Virus record (IMG/VR): IMGVR_UViG_3300035180_001115
Coordinates: 1 to 23,115 of that record
Length of the DNA stretch: 23,115 bases
Source: a virus
Direction: 5' to 3' (one strand)
Shown piece after piece: positions 6,755 to 19,260 of the stretch. A model generated the notes under the pieces. That model was not told where the DNA came from. It did not search any database and saw only the letters and a list, made by a program, of their open reading frames with translations. Made by a program: the position numbers and the translations under genes. How positions within the stretch are numbered: the stretch's first letter is position 1; each line of letters starts with the position of its first letter.

Positions 6755-7218
6755 GCGACCTCCGTCCCGTCGCGGGGGGCGACGGCCTGTTCACCGAACT
6801 TCTCCAGCGCTTCGGCCACGGAGTGCGCGTGGAAGGCGATGTGACCTTCCGACCTGCGGGCCGCCAGGAAGTCCTTCTGGCCGAACTGGAACCTCCCGCC
6901 CGGCTTCTTGACCTCACAGAACACCCAGCGGCCATCGGGAAGCCGCCCAGTGAGGTCTGAGAAGGCCGGAGGGATCAGCAGGGCCACAGACAGGCCGAAG
7001 GGCGGCCGAGCGATTCCTAGGGCATTCAGGAGCCACTGCGGAGGGTTCGCCAGCAGGCCCTTGACCCCGGTCCCCCCCGCGTCGGTCTTGGTTAGTTTCA
7101 GCCGGTGCTTGAGAAGGAAGGCCTGCTGGATGGCCTTCTCGATGTCCCGCTCAGAGGGGGCGGCCTTCTTGCGCTTGGCGCGAACGATGAAGCCGGGGTT
7201 GGAGCCGAACATACTCAT
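6751..7218 (-). CDS. VRR-NUC domain nuclease
   Basis: This 155-residue protein has the VRR-NUC (PD-(D/E)XK superfamily) core: PPAFSDLTGRLPDGRWVFCE with VKKPGGRFQFGQKDFLAARR directly after. The putative metal ligands are the D in SDLTG and E-x-K in CEVKK; the Q in the FGQ motif is the usual downstream conserved residue. The N-terminus carries an ERDIEKAIQQAF helix also typical of the family. In phages these stand-alone nucleases sit with replication or packaging genes and probably resolve branched DNA before packaging. It lacks a good SD; its ATG overlaps the stop of the upstream repeat-bearing ORF, so coupling may supply translation. Confidence 0.88.
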   Translation of the reverse strand: MSMFGSNPGFIVRAKRKKAAPSERDIEKAIQQAFLLKHRLKLTKTDAGGTGVKGLLANPPQWLLNALGIARPPFGLSVALLIPPAFSDLTGRLPDGRWVFCEVKKPGGRFQFGQKDFLAARRSEGHIAFHAHSVAEALEKFGEQAVAPRDGTEVA

Positions 7219-7499
7219 GGGTGACCAACCTGACCAACCTCAAATCTGAGGTCGGTCGGGGAAATCGCATTGAAAAATAAGGAACTGACCAACCTGACCA
7301 ACCTGACCAACCTAAAGTCAGAAAAGGTTGTCAGGTTCGGATTATCGTCACCCTGGAGATTGGGAATTGGATGCTCCATGAAATTCCCCCTACGTGCGCG
7401 AGGCAAAAGGTTGGTCAGGTTGGTCAGATTCAACGCCCATGCGGCCCGAGGTCGGTCGGGCAGGTTGGTCAGAGGTTGGTCAGGTCGGTCAGGTGGCAC
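7215..7499 (-). CDS. Small ORF spanning the iteron array (uncertain)
   Basis: A 94-residue frame crosses the whole repeat array. It begins GTG at 7499 with GGAGGT 6 nt upstream, overlaps the primase stop by 11 nt, and ends by ATGA overlap with the VRR-NUC start. The product is low complexity where it crosses repeats (PDRPDQPLTNL, LTNLTNL, FRLVRLVRLV, VGQVGHP) because the 9-bp unit is a multiple of three and contains no stop in this frame. It could be translated mainly to couple VRR-NUC to the primase, or it may be an accidental open frame over an origin. No family is recognised. Confidence 0.4.
   Translation of the reverse strand: MPPDRPDQPLTNLPDRPRAAWALNLTNLTNLLPRARRGNFMEHPIPNLQGDDNPNLTTFSDFRLVRLVRLVSSLFFNAISPTDLRFEVGQVGHP
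7222..7491 (-). repeat. Two opposing clusters of 9-bp iterons; candidate replication origin
   Basis: TGACCAACC occurs exactly at 7222, 7231, 7286, 7295 and 7304. Its complement GGTTGGTCA occurs exactly at 7409, 7418, 7463 and 7474, with variants at 7326 (one base missing) and 7483 (GGTCGGTCA). A 13-bp repeat GAGGTCGGTCGGG occurs at 7248 and 7448, exactly 200 bp apart. The left cluster is direct, the right cluster inverted, and the middle (about 7261-7390) contains the most AT-rich pieces. It lies directly after the primase-helicase gene. Iterons plus an AT-rich segment next to the replication protein is the classic layout of an initiator-dependent origin; function here is inferred. Confidence 0.8.
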
Positions 7500-9786
7500 G
7501 GCACCACCTCCGCTCGCGGGCCTCGCCCACCCGTACCTGCTTCCACCCCTTGGCCTTGAGTAGGGCTGCCAGCTTCATGGAGGCGCCCTTGGTCTGCTGG
7601 GCAACGGGCAAGCCCATGAGGGTCATCAGCTCACCGATGGGGATACCTTCCGCCAGGGATTTCCCGTCCTTCATGTAGGCGGCCGCAGCCAATTCCACCA
7701 TGTGGTCCCATGGGTCCTCGGCAGCGAAGTCCTCGGCCTGGACCTCGCGGCGGGTGTCCATGGACGACTCGAGCCAGTGGTCCATACCGGCTCGCTCCAG
7801 GTTGAGGGCTTCCGCCCACAACTGGTCCCGCCATTCGCGGAGGCGGGAAACATTGACGGTGTCCATGACCCGTATTGGCCAGAACCGGCGGGAGCCGGTG
7901 GCGTCAGTCAGGAACTGGTCCCGGTTCGTGGTGCCCACGATGACGCAGGACCGCGGGTATATGGCCGCGGAGGCGGCGTAGGGCGCCCGGAATATGTCCC
8001 GACGGGAAGAGAGGAAGGCCTTGACCTTCTCCTGGGACTGGACGCTGGTCAGATGGTCTATCTCCCCCAGCTCTGTGATCCACGACTGGTGCAAGACCAG
8101 GTAGCCGTCCTTGTTCGTCAGGTCTATCGGGCTGTCGCCGAACCACTCGCCAGCGAGCTCAGCGAAGAAGGTGGACTTGAGGAAGCCCTGGGGCCCGGAC
8201 AGGACCAGGGTCGTGTCCAGCTTGCACCCGGGATGGAGCACCCGGCGGACCGCGCCCACGGCCCAGCGCACCAGGTACTGGGCGTTCAGGTCGTGGGGCT
8301 CGGCGTGGAGAACGACGTCGGGCACCTGGCGCAGCCGCTCCTGGCCGTCCCAGGGGGGCAACGCCTCGAGGTAGCGCCGGACCGGGTGTATGGGGTTCTG
8401 GCTGCACTGGGCCAGCAGCTTGGCCCGGACCTCATCCCTCCCGAAGTTCAGGCCGTAGGTGTCCTGCACCCACTCCTGGACCTCATCCACGAAGTGGTCG
8501 CGCTTGGGCTGGGCGTCGTGGCAGATGTCCCGGCTCATCTCATTGAGGGAGAGCCGGGCGCCCCACTGCGGGTCGAAGCGGAGGATCTTGGCGAGGTTGG
8601 CCGGCACCTTGAGAGGGGCGCCGTCCTTGCCCAGGTGAAGGCGCTGCCAGACAGGCGTGTGTTCCTCGCGCCCCACGGCGGGGGGCAGGGCCCCGTCCTC
8701 CTCATCCTCACCGGCCTCCTGCTTCGGGCGGTAGGCCTGAGCGTGGGAGCCCACCAGGGGCTTGCCGGCGGCTTCGCAGATGTCCTGGAGCCCGAGGTGC
8801 ACGTGCCCGGAGTGCGCGCACTTGAAGGACGGCCAGTCCCCCGGGGTCTGTATAACCACGGCGCTGTCATCGTCCAGGGCGTGGGTGTGCTCCGAGGCCC
8901 AGGGGCAGTGACACCGGAACTTGTAGCCTCCGCGGAAGGGCTGGGCCTTGCCCACTTTCACCCCCATGGACGCCAGCAGACCGGCCAGGTCTAGGGTTTT
9001 GAACTCCACGCGGAAGTTCCGCCACCAGTCCCGGCCCGTGCGGGGGTCGATCTTGGGGCGGGGCTTGAGCCAGGCGGGAGGCTCGGGGTCCTTGACCTCG
9101 ACGTTGGGCAGCGCGGCCTCGGGGATCGCCAAGTGCTTGCCCTTGAGCTCCCAGACCTTCACGGAGGAGGGGTCCGGGGCGCATGGCAGGAAGTTGAGCC
9201 GGGCCACGTCACGCAGAACGGGGATGTCGATCGCCCGGGACTCCTTCCATGGCAGGAAGCCCAGGTGGTCCATGGCCCATTCCGTGGCCTCGGTCCAGTA
9301 GGCCGGACTGATGGGGGCCTGCAAGGGGATCACAACGCGGAACTTGGCCAGCTGGGCGCTGTGGCTCCAGGTCGTGTAGACCACGGCCGCCAGCCCCCGG
9401 GCCTTGATTGCCTCGATCACCTGCTCGGGCTGGGCGGGCTCAGCGATGGGCACCTTGCGCGTCTTGGGCCTACCGCTCTTGTGGTTCTCACCGGGGATGG
9501 GTTCCTCGATGCAGTTGTCGAAGTCGAAGACCAGGAGGTGAATGGACTCGGCGTTGTCGCAGGCTCGGGACGTGCCGTCGAAGAAGGCCGTTCCCGAGAA
9601 CGCGGGGACCGCCTTCTTGGCGTCGGCGGGGTCCTTGCGCTTCGGGGCCCGGGTGACGGTGGTCAGGACCTCCACCAGTTCCGGCCAGGTCCCGTTGTGC
9701 CTGTCCGGCTGGTTGTCCTTGGCCCCGGCGAACTGGGACCAGGACAGCACCCGCTGGAAGGGCTGGAGGGCTGCGGCGGCACTCAT
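7489..9786 (-). CDS. Primase-helicase: AEP primase, zinc site and VirE-type helicase
   Basis: This 765-residue replication protein has three parts. Residues about 60-220 resemble an archaeo-eukaryotic primase: HLLVFDFDN (D88, D90) and YTTWSH (H142). A putative zinc site follows: RCHCPW (C292, C294) and FKCAHSGH (C323, H326, H328). The C-terminal third is a virulence-associated E (PF05272-type) P-loop ATPase: Walker A GPQGFLKST (531-539), Walker B SWITELGEID (about 568-577) and the arginine-finger motif TGSRRFWP (630-637). Such proteins prime and unwind phage or satellite origins. It is preceded by a 12-aa leader ORF with ATGA overlap and followed by the iteron array, its likely target. Confidence 0.92.
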   Translation of the reverse strand: MSAAAALQPFQRVLSWSQFAGAKDNQPDRHNGTWPELVEVLTTVTRAPKRKDPADAKKAVPAFSGTAFFDGTSRACDNAESIHLLVFDFDNCIEEPIPGENHKSGRPKTRKVPIAEPAQPEQVIEAIKARGLAAVVYTTWSHSAQLAKFRVVIPLQAPISPAYWTEATEWAMDHLGFLPWKESRAIDIPVLRDVARLNFLPCAPDPSSVKVWELKGKHLAIPEAALPNVEVKDPEPPAWLKPRPKIDPRTGRDWWRNFRVEFKTLDLAGLLASMGVKVGKAQPFRGGYKFRCHCPWASEHTHALDDDSAVVIQTPGDWPSFKCAHSGHVHLGLQDICEAAGKPLVGSHAQAYRPKQEAGEDEEDGALPPAVGREEHTPVWQRLHLGKDGAPLKVPANLAKILRFDPQWGARLSLNEMSRDICHDAQPKRDHFVDEVQEWVQDTYGLNFGRDEVRAKLLAQCSQNPIHPVRRYLEALPPWDGQERLRQVPDVVLHAEPHDLNAQYLVRWAVGAVRRVLHPGCKLDTTLVLSGPQGFLKSTFFAELAGEWFGDSPIDLTNKDGYLVLHQSWITELGEIDHLTSVQSQEKVKAFLSSRRDIFRAPYAASAAIYPRSCVIVGTTNRDQFLTDATGSRRFWPIRVMDTVNVSRLREWRDQLWAEALNLERAGMDHWLESSMDTRREVQAEDFAAEDPWDHMVELAAAAYMKDGKSLAEGIPIGELMTLMGLPVAQQTKGASMKLAALLKAKGWKQVRVGEARERRWCRAT

Positions 9787-10357: not shown

Positions 10358-10501
10358 ATGAAGGTGATCCCCGAACTGATCCCGCTCGAAGCCCAGGCGA
10401 TGTTTGCGCCCACGCCAGAGTGGGAGGCGGCGGCCAGACAGACGCTGGCGGTGGAGAGGGCCCGTCCTCATGCGGCGGCGGGGGGGGAGGAGGAGGAATG
10501 A
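10358..10501 (+). CDS. Small acidic ORF in the regulator gap (doubtful)
   Basis: A 47-residue frame, MKVIPELIPLEAQAMFAPTP then EWEAAARQTLAVERA and an EEEE tail, lies in the 119-nt gap between the CII-like and Cro-like genes but on the opposite strand. It overlaps the 3' end of the Cro-like gene by 34 nt. No SD is visible. The non-low-complexity first half looks protein-like, so it is kept at low confidence. Confidence 0.25.
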   Translation: MKVIPELIPLEAQAMFAPTPEWEAAARQTLAVERARPHAAAGGEEEE

Positions 10502-10695
10502 TCAGGGAGACCCATCAACACGGCCGCCTTGAGCGCGCCCTTCGAGGCGGCTTCCAGGCGAAGTGCAAGGGGAAGGCGAGGCTTGATCTTCCCGGAAAGA
10601 ATCCGGCTCATGTGCCCATCACCGATCCCAACCTTCCTAGCGAGGGACCTTTGCGTCAGGCCAGCGGCCCGAAGGGAGTCTTGGAGAACGCTCAT
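10468..10695 (-). CDS. Cro-like HTH (XRE) repressor
   Basis: This 75-residue protein is almost entirely one Cro/CI-type helix-turn-helix: LQDSLRAAGLTQRSLARKVG then IGDGHMSRILSGKIKPRLPL and ALRLEAASKG. The ATG at 10695 is chosen over a longer frame because GAGGG lies just upstream and the extension would read through the operator. It is divergent from the CI-like gene and is the first gene of the leftward operon, so it most likely acts as Cro, shutting off the repressor promoter and tuning early lytic transcription. An operator (10705-10722) lies in its promoter. Confidence 0.82.
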   Translation of the reverse strand: MSVLQDSLRAAGLTQRSLARKVGIGDGHMSRILSGKIKPRLPLALRLEAASKGALKAAVLMGLPDHSSSSPPAAA

Positions 10696-10702
10696 GGCCC
10701 TC

Positions 10703-10731
10703 AGTTTGCAGCGCCAATGCAACCAAGTCAA
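10703..10731 (-). promoter_or_regulatory. Leftward (cro) promoter with operator O1
   Basis: On the minus strand, TTGACT (10731-10726) and CAAACT (10708-10703) are 17 nt apart. The -35 is good and the -10 is weak. Within the spacer and -10 lies the symmetric operator TTTGCA-GCGCCA-ATGCAA (plus strand 10705-10722). A repressor bound there would block RNA polymerase directly. Confidence 0.6.
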
Positions 10732-10735
10732 GGTG

Positions 10736-10756
10736 GTGCAAGCGTGAAATTTGCAC
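10736..10756 (+). promoter_or_regulatory. Second operator-like inverted repeat O2
   Basis: GTGCAA (10736-10741) and TTGCAC (10751-10756) form an inverted repeat with a 9-nt centre and the same TTGCA/TGCAA half-sites as O1. It lies 13 nt from O1, immediately before the CI-like coding region, so it could mediate repressor autoregulation. The wider spacing makes it a weaker match. Confidence 0.45.
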
Positions 10757-10776
10757 CCATGCGGCAAGATCTAGCC

Positions 10777-11190
10777 ATGGCGAAGCACTGGATCTACAGC
10801 GAGGCGTTTGATCGTCGCTACCGGGAGTTCAGGGAGCGCACTGGTGCGTCGAATGAGGACGTGGCCCGAGCACTCGGCAAGTCTGAGGGGACCATCAACT
10901 CCTACCGCAGGAAGCACGACGCCATCACCCCCGACCCCGAAACGCTGCTCAAGGCGGCCGAACTGTTCGGGTGCAACATATTCGAGTTCATGCCCGACTA
11001 TCGCGCCATCCAGGCCGTAAGAATCGGTGTCGCCGAATTGACGGATCTTGATATTTACAGGATCTCGGAGTCAGCGCGGATGCTTACCGATCCCGGCTCT
11101 ACACAAGAAGAGCGGGACATGATGGTCCAGGGGTTACGAGAGCTCCAGGACAAAATTGCCCGTCTCAAGCGGTCTAGATCAACTACCTGA
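10777..11190 (+). CDS. CI-like HTH repressor
   Basis: From the ATG at 10777 the product has 137 residues: an XRE-type HTH (YREFRERTGASNEDVARALG then KSEGTINSYRRKHDAITPDP, about 10-50), a short linker (AAELFGCNIFEFMPDYRAI), then a helical C-terminal part ending in a coiled coil (DMMVQGLRELQDKIARLKR). There is no peptidase domain, so it is not a LexA-type, self-cleaving CI. It is divergent from the Cro-like gene with operators between them, the standard place for the lysogeny repressor. Start alternatives are ATG 10759 and GTG 10744; the GTG has AAGGTGG about 7 nt upstream. Confidence 0.78.
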   Translation: MAKHWIYSEAFDRRYREFRERTGASNEDVARALGKSEGTINSYRRKHDAITPDPETLLKAAELFGCNIFEFMPDYRAIQAVRIGVAELTDLDIYRISESARMLTDPGSTQEERDMMVQGLRELQDKIARLKRSRSTT

Positions 11191-11250
11191 AGGTTGTTTG
11201 GTCAACACCTGTCCATTATTTTTCTGGTAGCCTCTTTGCCCGGAGGCGTG

Positions 11251-11469
11251 ATGCAGACCAGTGATCCCGCATTTTCCCATGCCCTTGAGCTTAAAGCCGC
11301 GCTTTACGGGCTTGCCCTGGTCCCCTGCGACCTGGCGCGGCCTGCTGTGTCTACCACGCCCTCCGGCTTTCCTATCCTCTTCCTTCCCCGCGCCTTTGAG
11401 GCGAAAGCCTGGGCCCACCTAGTGGACGAACAGATCAACGCAATCAAATCCAAGAGAGGTGCAGCATGA
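11251..11469 (+). CDS. Small protein of unknown function downstream of repressor
   Basis: The 72-residue product (MQTSDPAFSHALELKAALYG ...) is chosen from ATG 11251 because GGAGG lies 5 nt upstream; a longer frame begins at 11194. It contains a VPCDLARPAVSTTPSG segment and ends with AWAHLVDEQINAIKSKRGAA. No domain is recognised and no membrane segment is evident. It overlaps the lipoprotein start by ATGA, so the two are co-translated. Placement between repressor and lipoprotein suggests expression during lysogeny. Confidence 0.6.
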   Translation: MQTSDPAFSHALELKAALYGLALVPCDLARPAVSTTPSGFPILFLPRAFEAKAWAHLVDEQINAIKSKRGAA

Positions 11470-11834
11470 AGCGATTCTTCCCGGCGCTGGCTCTGGTGGC
11501 CTTGGTGGGGTGCACATCCCCCGTCACTGACCCAGCCATGATTGAGTCGTGTGGGCCCAAGCCGAGTCAACAGATAGCCGAGGCTGTCGCGGCCAAGGCT
11601 GTATCCCTCATGCGCCTCAAGGACCCCGAATCTGCGCGGATCACCGAAGTGACTGTGGAGTCCCCCATGGTCTGGAAAGGTGATCCCGGAGGCCCCTGGG
11701 TCGGCTGGCAGATCGGGTTCTACCTGAACGCCAAGAACTCATTTGGTGGCTACGTGGGGCCGCAGCGCATCATCGTCCTGCTCCGGAAAGACGGTACGTT
11801 CCGCTACCGCCCCGCTGACGCCTGGCACCCCTGA
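11466..11834 (+). CDS. Phage-encoded lipoprotein (candidate conversion or exclusion protein)
   Basis: This 122-residue protein has a textbook lipoprotein signal: MKRFFPALALVALVGC with lipobox LVGC, C16 being the lipidated residue. The mature part has a helix (IAEAVAAKAVSLMRLKDPES), then alternating strands (ARITEVTVESPMVW, VGWQIGFYLNAKNSFGGYVG, QRIIVLLRKDGTFRYRP), a compact globular fold. It shares an operon with the CI-like gene and is followed by a terminator, so it is likely made in lysogens. Phage lipoproteins in this position often block superinfection; that role here is inferred. Confidence 0.75.
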   Translation: MKRFFPALALVALVGCTSPVTDPAMIESCGPKPSQQIAEAVAAKAVSLMRLKDPESARITEVTVESPMVWKGDPGGPWVGWQIGFYLNAKNSFGGYVGPQRIIVLLRKDGTFRYRPADAWHP

Positions 11835-11858
11835 TTTATCCCTCCACACCCTGTGTCC

Positions 11859-11881
11859 AGCCCCGCCCCGGCGGGGCTTTT
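11859..11881 (+). terminator. Rho-independent terminator of the repressor/lipoprotein unit
   Basis: AGCCCCGC-CCCG-GCGGGGC followed by TTTT, a perfect 7-bp GC stem with a 4-nt loop. It lies 25 nt after the lipoprotein stop codon and separates the lysogeny unit from the rightward early operon. Confidence 0.85.
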
Positions 11882-11888
11882 CCATGCC

Positions 11889-11911
11889 CTCAAAAAAATT
11901 TTGAGATTTTT
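11889..11911. terminator. AT-rich hairpin with T-run, possible second terminator or promoter-proximal element
   Basis: CTCAAAA-AAA-TTTTGAG followed by ATTTTT forms a 7-bp AT-rich stem. It is weaker than the terminator just upstream. The same AT-rich stretch could instead help open, or act as an UP-like element for, the promoter at 11925-11952. Confidence 0.35.
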
Positions 11912-11924
11912 CTTGCCGTGGGGG

Positions 11925-11952
11925 TTGCATCTTTGCAGTTTCGATGCAAACT
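11925..11952 (+). promoter_or_regulatory. Rightward early promoter with operator O3
   Basis: TTGCAT (11925-11930) and CAAACT (11947-11952) are 16 nt apart and embed TTTGCA-GTTTCG-ATGCAA (11932-11949), the same 6-6-6 operator as O1. The -10 hexamer is identical to that of the cro promoter and likewise overlaps the operator's right half. It would drive the operon from the leader ORF through the integrase. Confidence 0.55.
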
Positions 11953-12001: not shown

Positions 12002-12079
12002 ATGCCGAAAATCGTGAAGTTCCAGCCGCCGAAGCCCTCCGGCCCCAAGGCCCCCGCGCCGATTCGGGTGGCGGCATGA
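12002..12079 (+). CDS. 25-aa Pro/Lys-rich leader ORF
   Basis: The frame starts MPKIVKFQPPKPSGPKAPAP and ends IRVAA. AAGGAG lies 8 nt before the ATG, the strongest SD in this stretch, and the TGA overlaps the pentapeptide ATG (GCATGA). It is the first gene after the rightward promoter. It may be a true small basic protein or only a coupling leader. Confidence 0.6.
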   Translation: MPKIVKFQPPKPSGPKAPAPIRVAA

Positions 12080-12786
12080 CCCCCTCCACCATCTCCGTGA
12101 CACCCCACGCCGGTGCGGACCTCGCAGGCGCAAAACTCGTCAGGGCGGACCTGTATGGGACGGACCTATCTGGGGCAGATCTCTCCAGAGCGGATCTCTC
12201 CGGTGCAGACCTCGCCGAGGCAGATCTCGCCGGTGCTGACCTCTCCAAGGCAAACATCGCCGGAGCGAACCTCCACGGCTCAGACATCTGCGGTGCGAAC
12301 CTTGTCCGAGCGAACCTCGCCGTGACAAACCTCGCCGAAGCGAACCTCTCCGGTGCAAAGCTCGTCAGGGCGGACCTGTACGGTGCGGATCTCTCCGGGG
12401 CAGACCTCTCCGGGGCGTACCTCTACGAAGCAAACCTCGCCGAGGCGGATCTCGCCGGTGCAAATCTCGCCGGTGCGGACCTCGCCAGGGCGAAACTCTA
12501 CGGGGCGAGATACGGCGACCTGAAGCTAGCCGCAGTCGTGGTCATGACGGGCCTCTACAGGTACCAGTGCTGGGCCGCGGTCACCACTGACGGCGTCCCC
12601 TACGTGCGCATGGGGTGTTTCTGGCATTCCGTTGACGAGTGGGATGCCATCGGAATCCGAACGAGCAACACTTCCGAGTTCCCCGATGACGGCAGCGCGG
12701 AATCTGAGGAGCGTGCGGCGGCCTTTGAGCTTACGAGGGCCAAGGCACTCCGTATGGCTGAGGCACACAAGAAGGAGGTGTCATGA
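12076..12786 (+). CDS. Pentapeptide-repeat protein with conserved C-terminal domain
   Basis: This 236-residue protein has an 11-residue N-terminus, then about 26 uninterrupted pentapeptides of the A(D/N)LxG type (about 12-141; for example AGADL, VRADL, YGADL), predicted to form a right-handed quadrilateral beta-helix. Residues about 142-236 are a separate domain with YRYQCWAAVTTDGVPYVRMG, CFWHSVDEW and SEFPDDGS, which I recall in other phage pentapeptide proteins. Pentapeptide helices can mimic DNA (gyrase protection by Qnr/MfpA), so a role against host topoisomerase or nucleases is possible but not shown. The ATG at 12076 is preferred to 11944, which lies inside the operator. It is first in the early operon. 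Confidence 0.85.
   Translation: MTPSTISVTPHAGADLAGAKLVRADLYGTDLSGADLSRADLSGADLAEADLAGADLSKANIAGANLHGSDICGANLVRANLAVTNLAEANLSGAKLVRADLYGADLSGADLSGAYLYEANLAEADLAGANLAGADLARAKLYGARYGDLKLAAVVVMTGLYRYQCWAAVTTDGVPYVRMGCFWHSVDEWDAIGIRTSNTSEFPDDGSAESEERAAAFELTRAKALRMAEAHKKEVS
12130..12380 (+). repeat. Internal DNA duplication in the pentapeptide gene
   Basis: A 26-nt block at 12130-12155 recurs at 12355-12380 with one mismatch, including the exact 20-mer CTCGTCAGGGCGGACCTGTA. The offset is 225 bp, exactly 15 pentapeptides, and the following codons (YG-DLSGADLS) also match. This suggests expansion by in-frame duplication. Confidence 0.7.
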
Positions 12787-18008: not shown

Positions 18009-18256
18009 TGGAGATCCTCACACAACAAGAACTCCAGATCCGCCTCCGGGCCGAGGGGCTGCCTCTAGGAACCCCCAGCATCCACGCCTGCATCGAGGCC
18101 GGGATGCCCGTGGTGAGAATCCCGGGCCACAAGAAGCCCCGGTTCCACTGGCCATCCTGCTGGGCCTGGCTCATCGCGTCCCGCGAACTGGATCCGCTGG
18201 CCCTTGCGACCAGGGATAGACTATTCCACAGGAACTCCCGGAGGACCACCGCTTGA
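18008..18256 (+). CDS. Candidate excisionase / recombination directionality factor
   Basis: This 82-residue protein looks like a small winged-helix DNA-binding protein: EILTQQELQIRLRAEGLPLG, IHACIEAGMPVVRIPGHKKP, RFHWPSCWAWLIASRE. The pattern 'helix-turn-helix, then GMPVVRI-x-KPRFHW' resembles AlpA/MerR-like excisionases. It lies directly upstream of the integrase with a 4-nt TTGA overlap, where phage xis genes usually sit, so co-expression for excision is likely. The call is from layout and context. Confidence 0.6.
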   Translation: MEILTQQELQIRLRAEGLPLGTPSIHACIEAGMPVVRIPGHKKPRFHWPSCWAWLIASRELDPLALATRDRLFHRNSRRTTA

Positions 18257-19260
18257 CCCGCTGGCTCCACAAGCGAGGCCGGTTCTACCACTACCGATTC
18301 AAGGTGGGCGGCCTGGAATACAGTGGCACCACGGAAGCCACGGATCTGGCGACGGCCAAGGTTGTCCTAGAGCAGGTGCGCCGGGAAACCATCCTCGGGG
18401 ACCACGGGATGCGGAAGGCCCCCACGCTCGGGGCCGTGGCGGGTGAGTGGCTGGGCACCCGCGGCAAGTCGGCATCCAAGGGTCACCGCAGGGCGGCAGA
18501 GCAGAGCCTGGAGGCACTCGGGAGCCTCGGCAAGCTGCCGCTGGACCGAATCACCACGCCCATCGTCCAGTCGTGGCAGGCCGCCTATCTACAGGGCCAC
18601 AGCGCGGCATCTGCGAACCTCGTCCTACGCTACCTCAAGCTATGGATGCGCTGGGCCATGGGCCAGAAACTCATCCGGGAGATGCCCTACTCCGTCCGGC
18701 CCGAGAAACAGCAGGAGCGCCCGCGCCCCGTGGTAGAGGATGTGGACGGGTTCCTCGCCAGGGTGGACGCCGGGGCCCGGAACCCGCAGGTTCCCGCCGC
18801 GGTCCGCTTCGCCATGATGCTGGGGCTCCGGGAGTCGGAAGTCCTCCAAGCCCGCTGGGAATGGCTGAAGGACGGATCCTACACCGTGGCCGGCCGCACC
18901 AAGAGCCGGAAGGTCCGGACCGTGCCTGTGCCAGAACCCTTGCGGGTGGCCCTGGTCCTCATGCTGGCGGCCCAACAGCACGGCCCGGCACAGGTCCCAC
19001 GGCTCGGCCTGATGTTCCCAGGCCGGGATGGGCGGCCCCACCGCCAGGGATGGCTACGGCAGGCCCTCCAGCGCGGTGGGGTAGGGGGCCTGGGGATGCA
19101 CCGCCTACGGGCCACCTTCGCCACGCTGCACCTCCGCAAGGGGACGCCACTGAAAGAGGTCCAGGAGATGATGGGCCATGGTGATGCCCGGACGACCCTG
19201 CTCTACCAGGAGGGCAGCCAGGGCGAGAAGCGGAAGTACCAGGATGCGCTGTGGGCGTGA
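18253..19260 (+). CDS. int: Tyrosine recombinase (phage integrase)
   Basis: This 335-residue protein starts at TTG 18253. It has an N-terminal arm-type region (WLHKRGRFYHYRFKVGG), a SAM-like core-binding domain (about 58-145) and a catalytic domain with all expected residues: R193 (GLRESEV), K217 on the beta-hairpin (GRTKSRK), H283 and R286 (MHRLR), H309 (MMGHGD) and the nucleophile Y318 (TLLYQEG). It acts on the tRNA-Thr attachment site located 70 nt downstream. It is the last gene of the rightward operon. Confidence 0.95.
   Translation: MTRWLHKRGRFYHYRFKVGGLEYSGTTEATDLATAKVVLEQVRRETILGDHGMRKAPTLGAVAGEWLGTRGKSASKGHRRAAEQSLEALGSLGKLPLDRITTPIVQSWQAAYLQGHSAASANLVLRYLKLWMRWAMGQKLIREMPYSVRPEKQQERPRPVVEDVDGFLARVDAGARNPQVPAAVRFAMMLGLRESEVLQARWEWLKDGSYTVAGRTKSRKVRTVPVPEPLRVALVLMLAAQQHGPAQVPRLGLMFPGRDGRPHRQGWLRQALQRGGVGGLGMHRLRATFATLHLRKGTPLKEVQEMMGHGDARTTLLYQEGSQGEKRKYQDALWA

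Follow-up and report, generated by a model that had tools for sequence, protein, structure and literature searches.

Duplicated palindromes suggest a lambda-plan immunity region in a temperate phage probably hosted by Holophagae

The virus record analyzed here (23,115 bases, the whole of which we refer to as the window) very likely carries the lambda-plan immunity region of an uncultured temperate phage, in which a CI-like repressor would bind a 17-bp palindrome at three places and silence both early promoters, with a Cro-like protein probably competing. In six relatives of this phage, the duplication of the sites, their geometry and their arrangement are conserved, with turnover of the operator sequence itself.

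Results

Copies of the palindrome in the window

According to the original prediction, the inverted repeat TTTGCA-N6-ATGCAA is present at positions 10705-10722 and 11932-11949, and a scan run over the 23,115-base record found both copies to be exact and detected no others. The symmetric core of the repeat is TTGCA-N7-TGCAA (17 bp), of which the record likewise holds two exact copies, at 10706-10722 and 11933-11949, and the promoter-oriented 20-mer TTGCA-N7-TGCAAACT matches exactly only at 10703-10722 on the minus strand and at 11933-11952 on the plus strand. An operator matrix was built from these two strong copies, which it ranks at the top, making the scan partly circular; its third-best site in the whole window adjoins the start of the CI-like gene. 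A related inverted repeat had also been reported to precede this gene at 10736-10756. Such a repeat exists (GGTGCAA/TTGCACC), with a true span of 10735-10757, and we considered it as a third operator, but its half-sites are oppositely oriented and lie 9 bp apart, and the site at 10751-10767, which has the true geometry, was preferred.

The statistics of the window by themselves place the repeat modestly above chance over kilobases. A plain similarity search across the 3.2 kb downstream of CI, in the window alone, gave 13 against a null maximum of 14, which was not significant; scoring similarity together with symmetry over 2.6 kb downstream of CI gave p = 0.04, and restricting the comparison to the two intergenic gaps gave p = 0.003. 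The lack of significance of plain similarity over kilobases in the window alone would suit a short palindrome that had occurred twice in intergenic DNA by chance, a reading which we regard as highly improbable in view of the restricted test and of the six relatives that, with other sequences, share both positions and the promoter geometry. As we read the sequences, it is this comparison with relatives that decides the case for operators, which would stay open on the evidence of the window alone.

Duplicated palindromes in related phages

The primase encoded in the window shares 85% identity with a primase from a Holophagaceae metagenome-assembled genome, and more distant primase relatives were found in 21 other genomes of the same class, which points to a probable host within Holophagae (Acidobacteriota). 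Related immunity regions were retrieved by primase, CI-profile and CII searches, and the comparison set consisted of the window together with L060/L058, L040, L003, L090, L077 and L076, six related phages or prophages from Holophagae genomes and metagenomes; L003, L076 and L077 are viral contigs, and the L003 primase is 69% identical to that of the window. Used as single queries, neither the CI nor the Cro of the window retrieved relatives among viral contigs, nor did CI among GenBank phages, and no homoimmune phage emerged when viral contigs were scanned for the complete pattern of cro promoter and operator.

All six relatives have a palindrome in two copies, the first ahead of cro and the second past the CI operon, and its sequence differs in each phage (Table 1). 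In a test blind to the expected sites, 17-mers from the 110 bp preceding CI were compared with those from the 2.6 kb beyond it and scored for similarity and symmetry against 200 shuffles; the smallest possible p value (0.005) was obtained in L060, L040, L003 and L090. The same test did not choose the pairs in L076 and L077 (p = 0.19 and 0.15, respectively), which were first spotted by eye. In each phage, including L077 and L076, a matrix built from the two copies ranks them above all other sites of the locus, and its third-best site lies near CI in the window, L040, L003, L090 and L076. Upstream of CI, the distance to the start of the cro-side site is 71-72 bp in five phages (the window, L060, L040, L090 and L077), 85 bp in L003 and 89 bp in L076. 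L003 has a 38-nt element upstream of cro that also occurs, inverted, ahead of the distal operon; its immunity region has no copy of TTGCA-N7-TGCAA. The distal promoters of L003 and L077 lead into recombination genes, namely Sak4-like and Gp157/Gam-like genes in L003 and a RecT-like gene in L077.

Among 12 other CI homologues (L078-L089, mostly AT-rich, with several contigs ending near CI), 10 were without a significant duplicated site; the nominal hits in L088 (a tandem repeat) and L089 (AT-rich) look like simple repeats. A blind search for inverted duplicates in loci with distant primases was informative only for L003 and L040. Taken together, a duplicated palindrome found at the same two places in six relatives, in each with its own sequence and with a shared geometry of promoter and cro start, supports the two-promoter regulon that had been predicted, since an operator bound by a phage-specific repressor would be expected to combine a constant place and geometry with a sequence of its own in each phage.

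Genes around the putative switch

In lambda, cro, cII and the replication genes lie to one side, and cI, further lysogen genes, oL, recombination and integration lie to the other; by analogy, the gene order of the window is that of lambda. Reading rightward from CI, the window has the 91-aa (or 72-aa) ORF, the lipoprotein-like gene, operator 2, the 25-aa ORF, the pentapeptide-repeat gene, a Gp157/Gam-like gene, a Sak4-like gene, a gene for a 172-aa conserved protein and, last, the integrase gene.

Table 1. Putative operators, candidate promoter elements and predicted genes of the immunity region in the window, with the putative operators of six relatives
Feature	Position	Strand	Basis
Operator 1 (oR, cro side), TTGCAGCGCCAATGCAA	10706-10722		Exact match and equivalent in six relatives; overlaps -10 of cro promoter
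Operator 2 (oL-like), TTGCAGTTTCGATGCAA	11933-11949		Exact match and equivalent in six relatives; overlaps -10 of rightward promoter
Operator 3 (weak, adjoins CI start), TTGCACCCATGCGGCAA	10751-10767		Third-best site in whole window; comparable in L040, L003, L090, L076
-35 TTGACT, predicted cro promoter (pR-like)	10726-10731	-	TTG 7-10 nt before operator in 14/14 promoters
-10 CAAACT, predicted cro promoter	10703-10708	-	Ends 7 nt before cro ATG (10695)
-35 TTGCAT, predicted rightward promoter (pL-like)	11925-11930	+	Sequence and geometry in relatives
-10 CAAACT, predicted rightward promoter	11947-11952	+	Sequence and geometry in relatives
VapE-type primase/helicase, leftward operon	7489-9786	-	Domain search
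CII-like protein, 166 aa	9848-10348	-	phrog_101, E = 2e-5; 81-82% identical in L058
Cro-like protein, 75 aa, HTH_31/HTH_3	10468-10695	-	Domain search
CI-like repressor, 137 aa, HTH_3, no S24 domain	10777-11190	+	Domain search
Short ORF after CI, 91 aa (or 72 aa from 11251)	11194-11469	+	Position of M78 peptidase gene in three relatives
Lipoprotein-like gene between CI and operator 2 (lambda rex position)	11466-11834	+	ORF, family search, comparison with L058
25-aa ORF, first in rightward operon	12002-12079	+	Sequence; no family match
Pentapeptide-repeat protein, rightward operon	12076-12786	+	Domain search
Tyrosine integrase, end of rightward block	18253-19260	+	Domain and family search
L060/L058 operator, TTAGCGGWTCGCTA			
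L040 operator, GTTAC-N7-GTAAC			
L003 operator, TCKCAC-N5-GTGMGA			
L090 operator, GGATACATWATGTCTAC			
L077 operator, TGAA-N7-TTCA			
L076 operator, CTTAC-N7-GTATG/GTTAG			

We also noted that the first gene of substantial length in the pL-like operon codes for a repeat protein both in the window and in L003 (3768-4562), where an 18-nt unit yields YGNARV-type repeats, different in kind from the pentapeptides of the window. In the window, L058 (229-621), L090 (3361-3981) and L076 (315-1028), the interval from CI to the distal operator contains a lipoprotein-like gene; in L040 and L077 it contains genes for secreted or membrane proteins. These genes, in the rex position, are candidates for superinfection exclusion or lysogenic conversion. 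In Streptococcus thermophilus phages, prophage lipoproteins exclude superinfecting phages (PMC3952083), and the window lipoprotein is therefore a candidate for an exclusion role, which we offer as a lead only. Separately, iterated and partly inverted short repeats (of the TGACCAACC, CTGAGCAACC and GTCCGAAC types) are present at approximately 7215-7500 in the window, 9314-9545 in L003 and 2340-2591 in L045, directly after the primase gene in the first two, and are possibly a replication origin. An 85-nt inverted pair in L045 was rejected as an operator, as it resembles iterons.

Candidate promoters and a predicted leaderless cro mRNA

Each copy of the repeat had been described as sitting between a -35-like hexamer and an identical -10, CAAACT, with the two promoters on opposite strands. 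The opposite strands and the identical hexamer were borne out, but the operator is not strictly between the hexamers, since its outer arm overlaps the -10. The minus-strand arrangement is TTGACT-N17-CAAACT and the plus-strand arrangement TTGCAT-N16-CAAACT. CAAACT agrees with TATAAT at three of six positions, making it a poor -10, and a generic promoter consensus scan of the window found no promoter. Against shuffles, the cro promoter scored p = 0.01, and the rightward promoter, at p = 0.41, does not stand out alone. All 14 candidate promoters (two in each of seven phages) have the TTG of a -35-like hexamer 7-10 bases ahead of the operator (approximately 0.10 expected per promoter), and in all seven phages the operator is followed 9-12 nt later by the cro ATG. 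A -10-like hexamer lies at the far operator edge, and is identical at the two promoters in the window, in L077 (CATACT) and in L090 (TACCTT). The two opposite-facing candidates, first described as "both lytic promoters", are better termed pR-like and pL-like: the former is predicted to serve cro, the CII-like gene, the primase gene and the structural genes, and the latter the recombination genes through the integrase gene.

Since the start would fall 6-7 nt after the -10, the cro mRNA would begin at or beside its AUG, and on these positions we predict a leaderless cro mRNA across the lineage (the window, L060, L003, L090, L077 and L076), less clearly so in L040, where the -10 candidates lie 7-10 nt from the ATG. 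This prediction has a precedent in phage PY54, whose cro mRNA was mapped as leaderless (PMC4488713). The same geometry bears on whether the element is instead a transcribed or structural signal common to the two promoters, such as an iteron of the origin, a recombination site or a nut-like antitermination site. A nut-like signal would agree with one inverted repeat recurring near two early promoters, but at each of them the element reaches into the predicted -10 and precedes the predicted start, and therefore would not be transcribed; boxA-like matches are at chance level, and the iteron-like repeats of the window lie elsewhere, near 7215-7500. We consider a signal of this kind very improbable.

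Which protein would bind the sites

Many regulators would be compatible with a 17-bp palindrome overlapping a promoter, among them a host protein that binds both sites and couples the early promoters to host physiology. The chances of this appear minimal: the seven related phages, apparently of one host class, have seven different operators, a diversity that a shared host regulator would not tolerate.

Between L058 and the window, the CII-like proteins are 81-82% identical, the lipoproteins 43% and the CI proteins only 27-33%, and the operators are unrelated. This reads as an exchanged immunity cassette, in which the repressor and both operators change and the neighboring gene is kept, corresponding to the heteroimmunity of lambdoid phages. 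CI varies from phage to phage and so does Cro; operator turnover therefore tracks the two alike, and the comparison cannot separate them. This, along with the binding of PY54 Cro to a single operator (PMC4488713), would be compatible with sites that are wholly or mainly operators of the Cro-like protein, with CI acting elsewhere or otherwise. We think this unlikely, as a distant second copy and a weak copy at the CI start fit a repressor that silences both early operons and itself. Most plausibly, then, CI acts at these sites, and CI and Cro probably both bind them.

Repressor type and inactivation

We searched the 137-aa CI-like protein for an S24/LexA-like C-terminal peptidase domain and obtained no S24 match. 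Its predicted structure is all helical (mean pLDDT 75.7, from a model of moderate quality built on three sequences). The nearest solved folds are lambda CI N-terminal domains, with no Foldseek match reaching E = 0.001, and the model aligns weakly with DdrO along most of its length. The CI profile matches ImmR of ICEBs1 (7t8i, E = 4e-6). In L040, L076 and L077, a gene for an M78 (ImmA/IrrE-type) peptidase directly follows CI. The window ORF after CI has no Pfam match, and hence an M78 gene was not found there; in both the window and L058 (631-843), an ORF of 70-91 aa without HExxH takes the place of the M78 gene, and may be a degenerate or replacing gene. In L003 (4787-4978), the repressor frame is apparently shortened and fused to the tail of the lipoprotein gene, which would reflect either a faulty assembly or, in a phage without a repressor, a deletion.

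A tentative further possibility, which we would not yet favor, is that these phages form a distinct Holophagae-phage lineage of lambda-plan switches, in which a short, non-self-cleaving repressor controls the two early promoters chiefly by way of single strong operators and every member makes its cro mRNA without a leader. Release of the repressor would be brought about by the M78 peptidase, whereas the window and L058 would use a different route, with the small replacing ORF perhaps taking part.

Discussion

In the mechanism that we propose, CI at 10706-10722 would cover the -10 and spacer of the leftward cro promoter, and CI at 11933-11949 would cover the rightward promoter of the recombination-integrase block; bound at both strong sites, it would block RNA polymerase at both early promoters. 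Weak binding at 10751-10767, beside its own start, would allow CI to autoregulate. In the lysogen, the CI-lipoprotein operon alone would be on. Loss of CI would open both early promoters, and the small Cro-like protein, predicted to be made from a leaderless mRNA, would probably bind the same sites and turn CI off.

This plan resembles that of lambda and the lambdoid phages: the CI and Cro genes diverge around shared putative operators, and the putative operator of the cro promoter recurs past the CI operon on a second candidate promoter, the one predicted to serve the recombination and integrase genes. Also as in lambda, a CII-like gene follows cro, a further gene lies between CI and oL, and immunity appears to be exchanged as a cassette. 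The sites are 17-bp dyads in both, lambda having six of them, three at each of oR and oL (PMC10742460), whereas in the window oR has two, one strong and the other weak, and oL a single site. Some accepted lambdoid phages have fewer sites than lambda, 933W having five in all (PMC10742460). Unlike lambda CI, the window CI is without an S24 self-cleaving domain, the cro mRNA of the window is predicted to be leaderless, and no N gene or boxA was recognized in the window, where boxA-like matches occur at chance level and the 25-aa ORF at 12002 has no family match.

The immB switch of the telomere phages PY54, phiKO2 and N15 shares the divergent repressor and Cro genes, but PY54 Cro acts on a single operator adjoining the repressor gene, whereas the putative operator of the window also lies on a second, distant promoter (PMC4488713). 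ImmR/ImmA of ICEBs1 and DdrO/IrrE of Deinococcus likewise have a short HTH repressor without S24; the M78 peptidase gene of these systems has its counterpart beside CI in L040, L076 and L077, but none is found there in the window or L058.

Within the literature covered, which was partial, we found no molecular description of immunity switches in phages of the Acidobacteria/Holophaga group. The region thus seems to be a known kind of switch in a little-studied lineage, where it had seemingly not been described before. With one layout and seven operators, the seven phages form a natural set for following how a repressor, its Cro and two operators change together, and this set yields concrete predictions of sites, promoter positions and leaderless cro mRNAs. 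In these phages, the operator sequence would amount to an immunity type that can be read directly from the genome.
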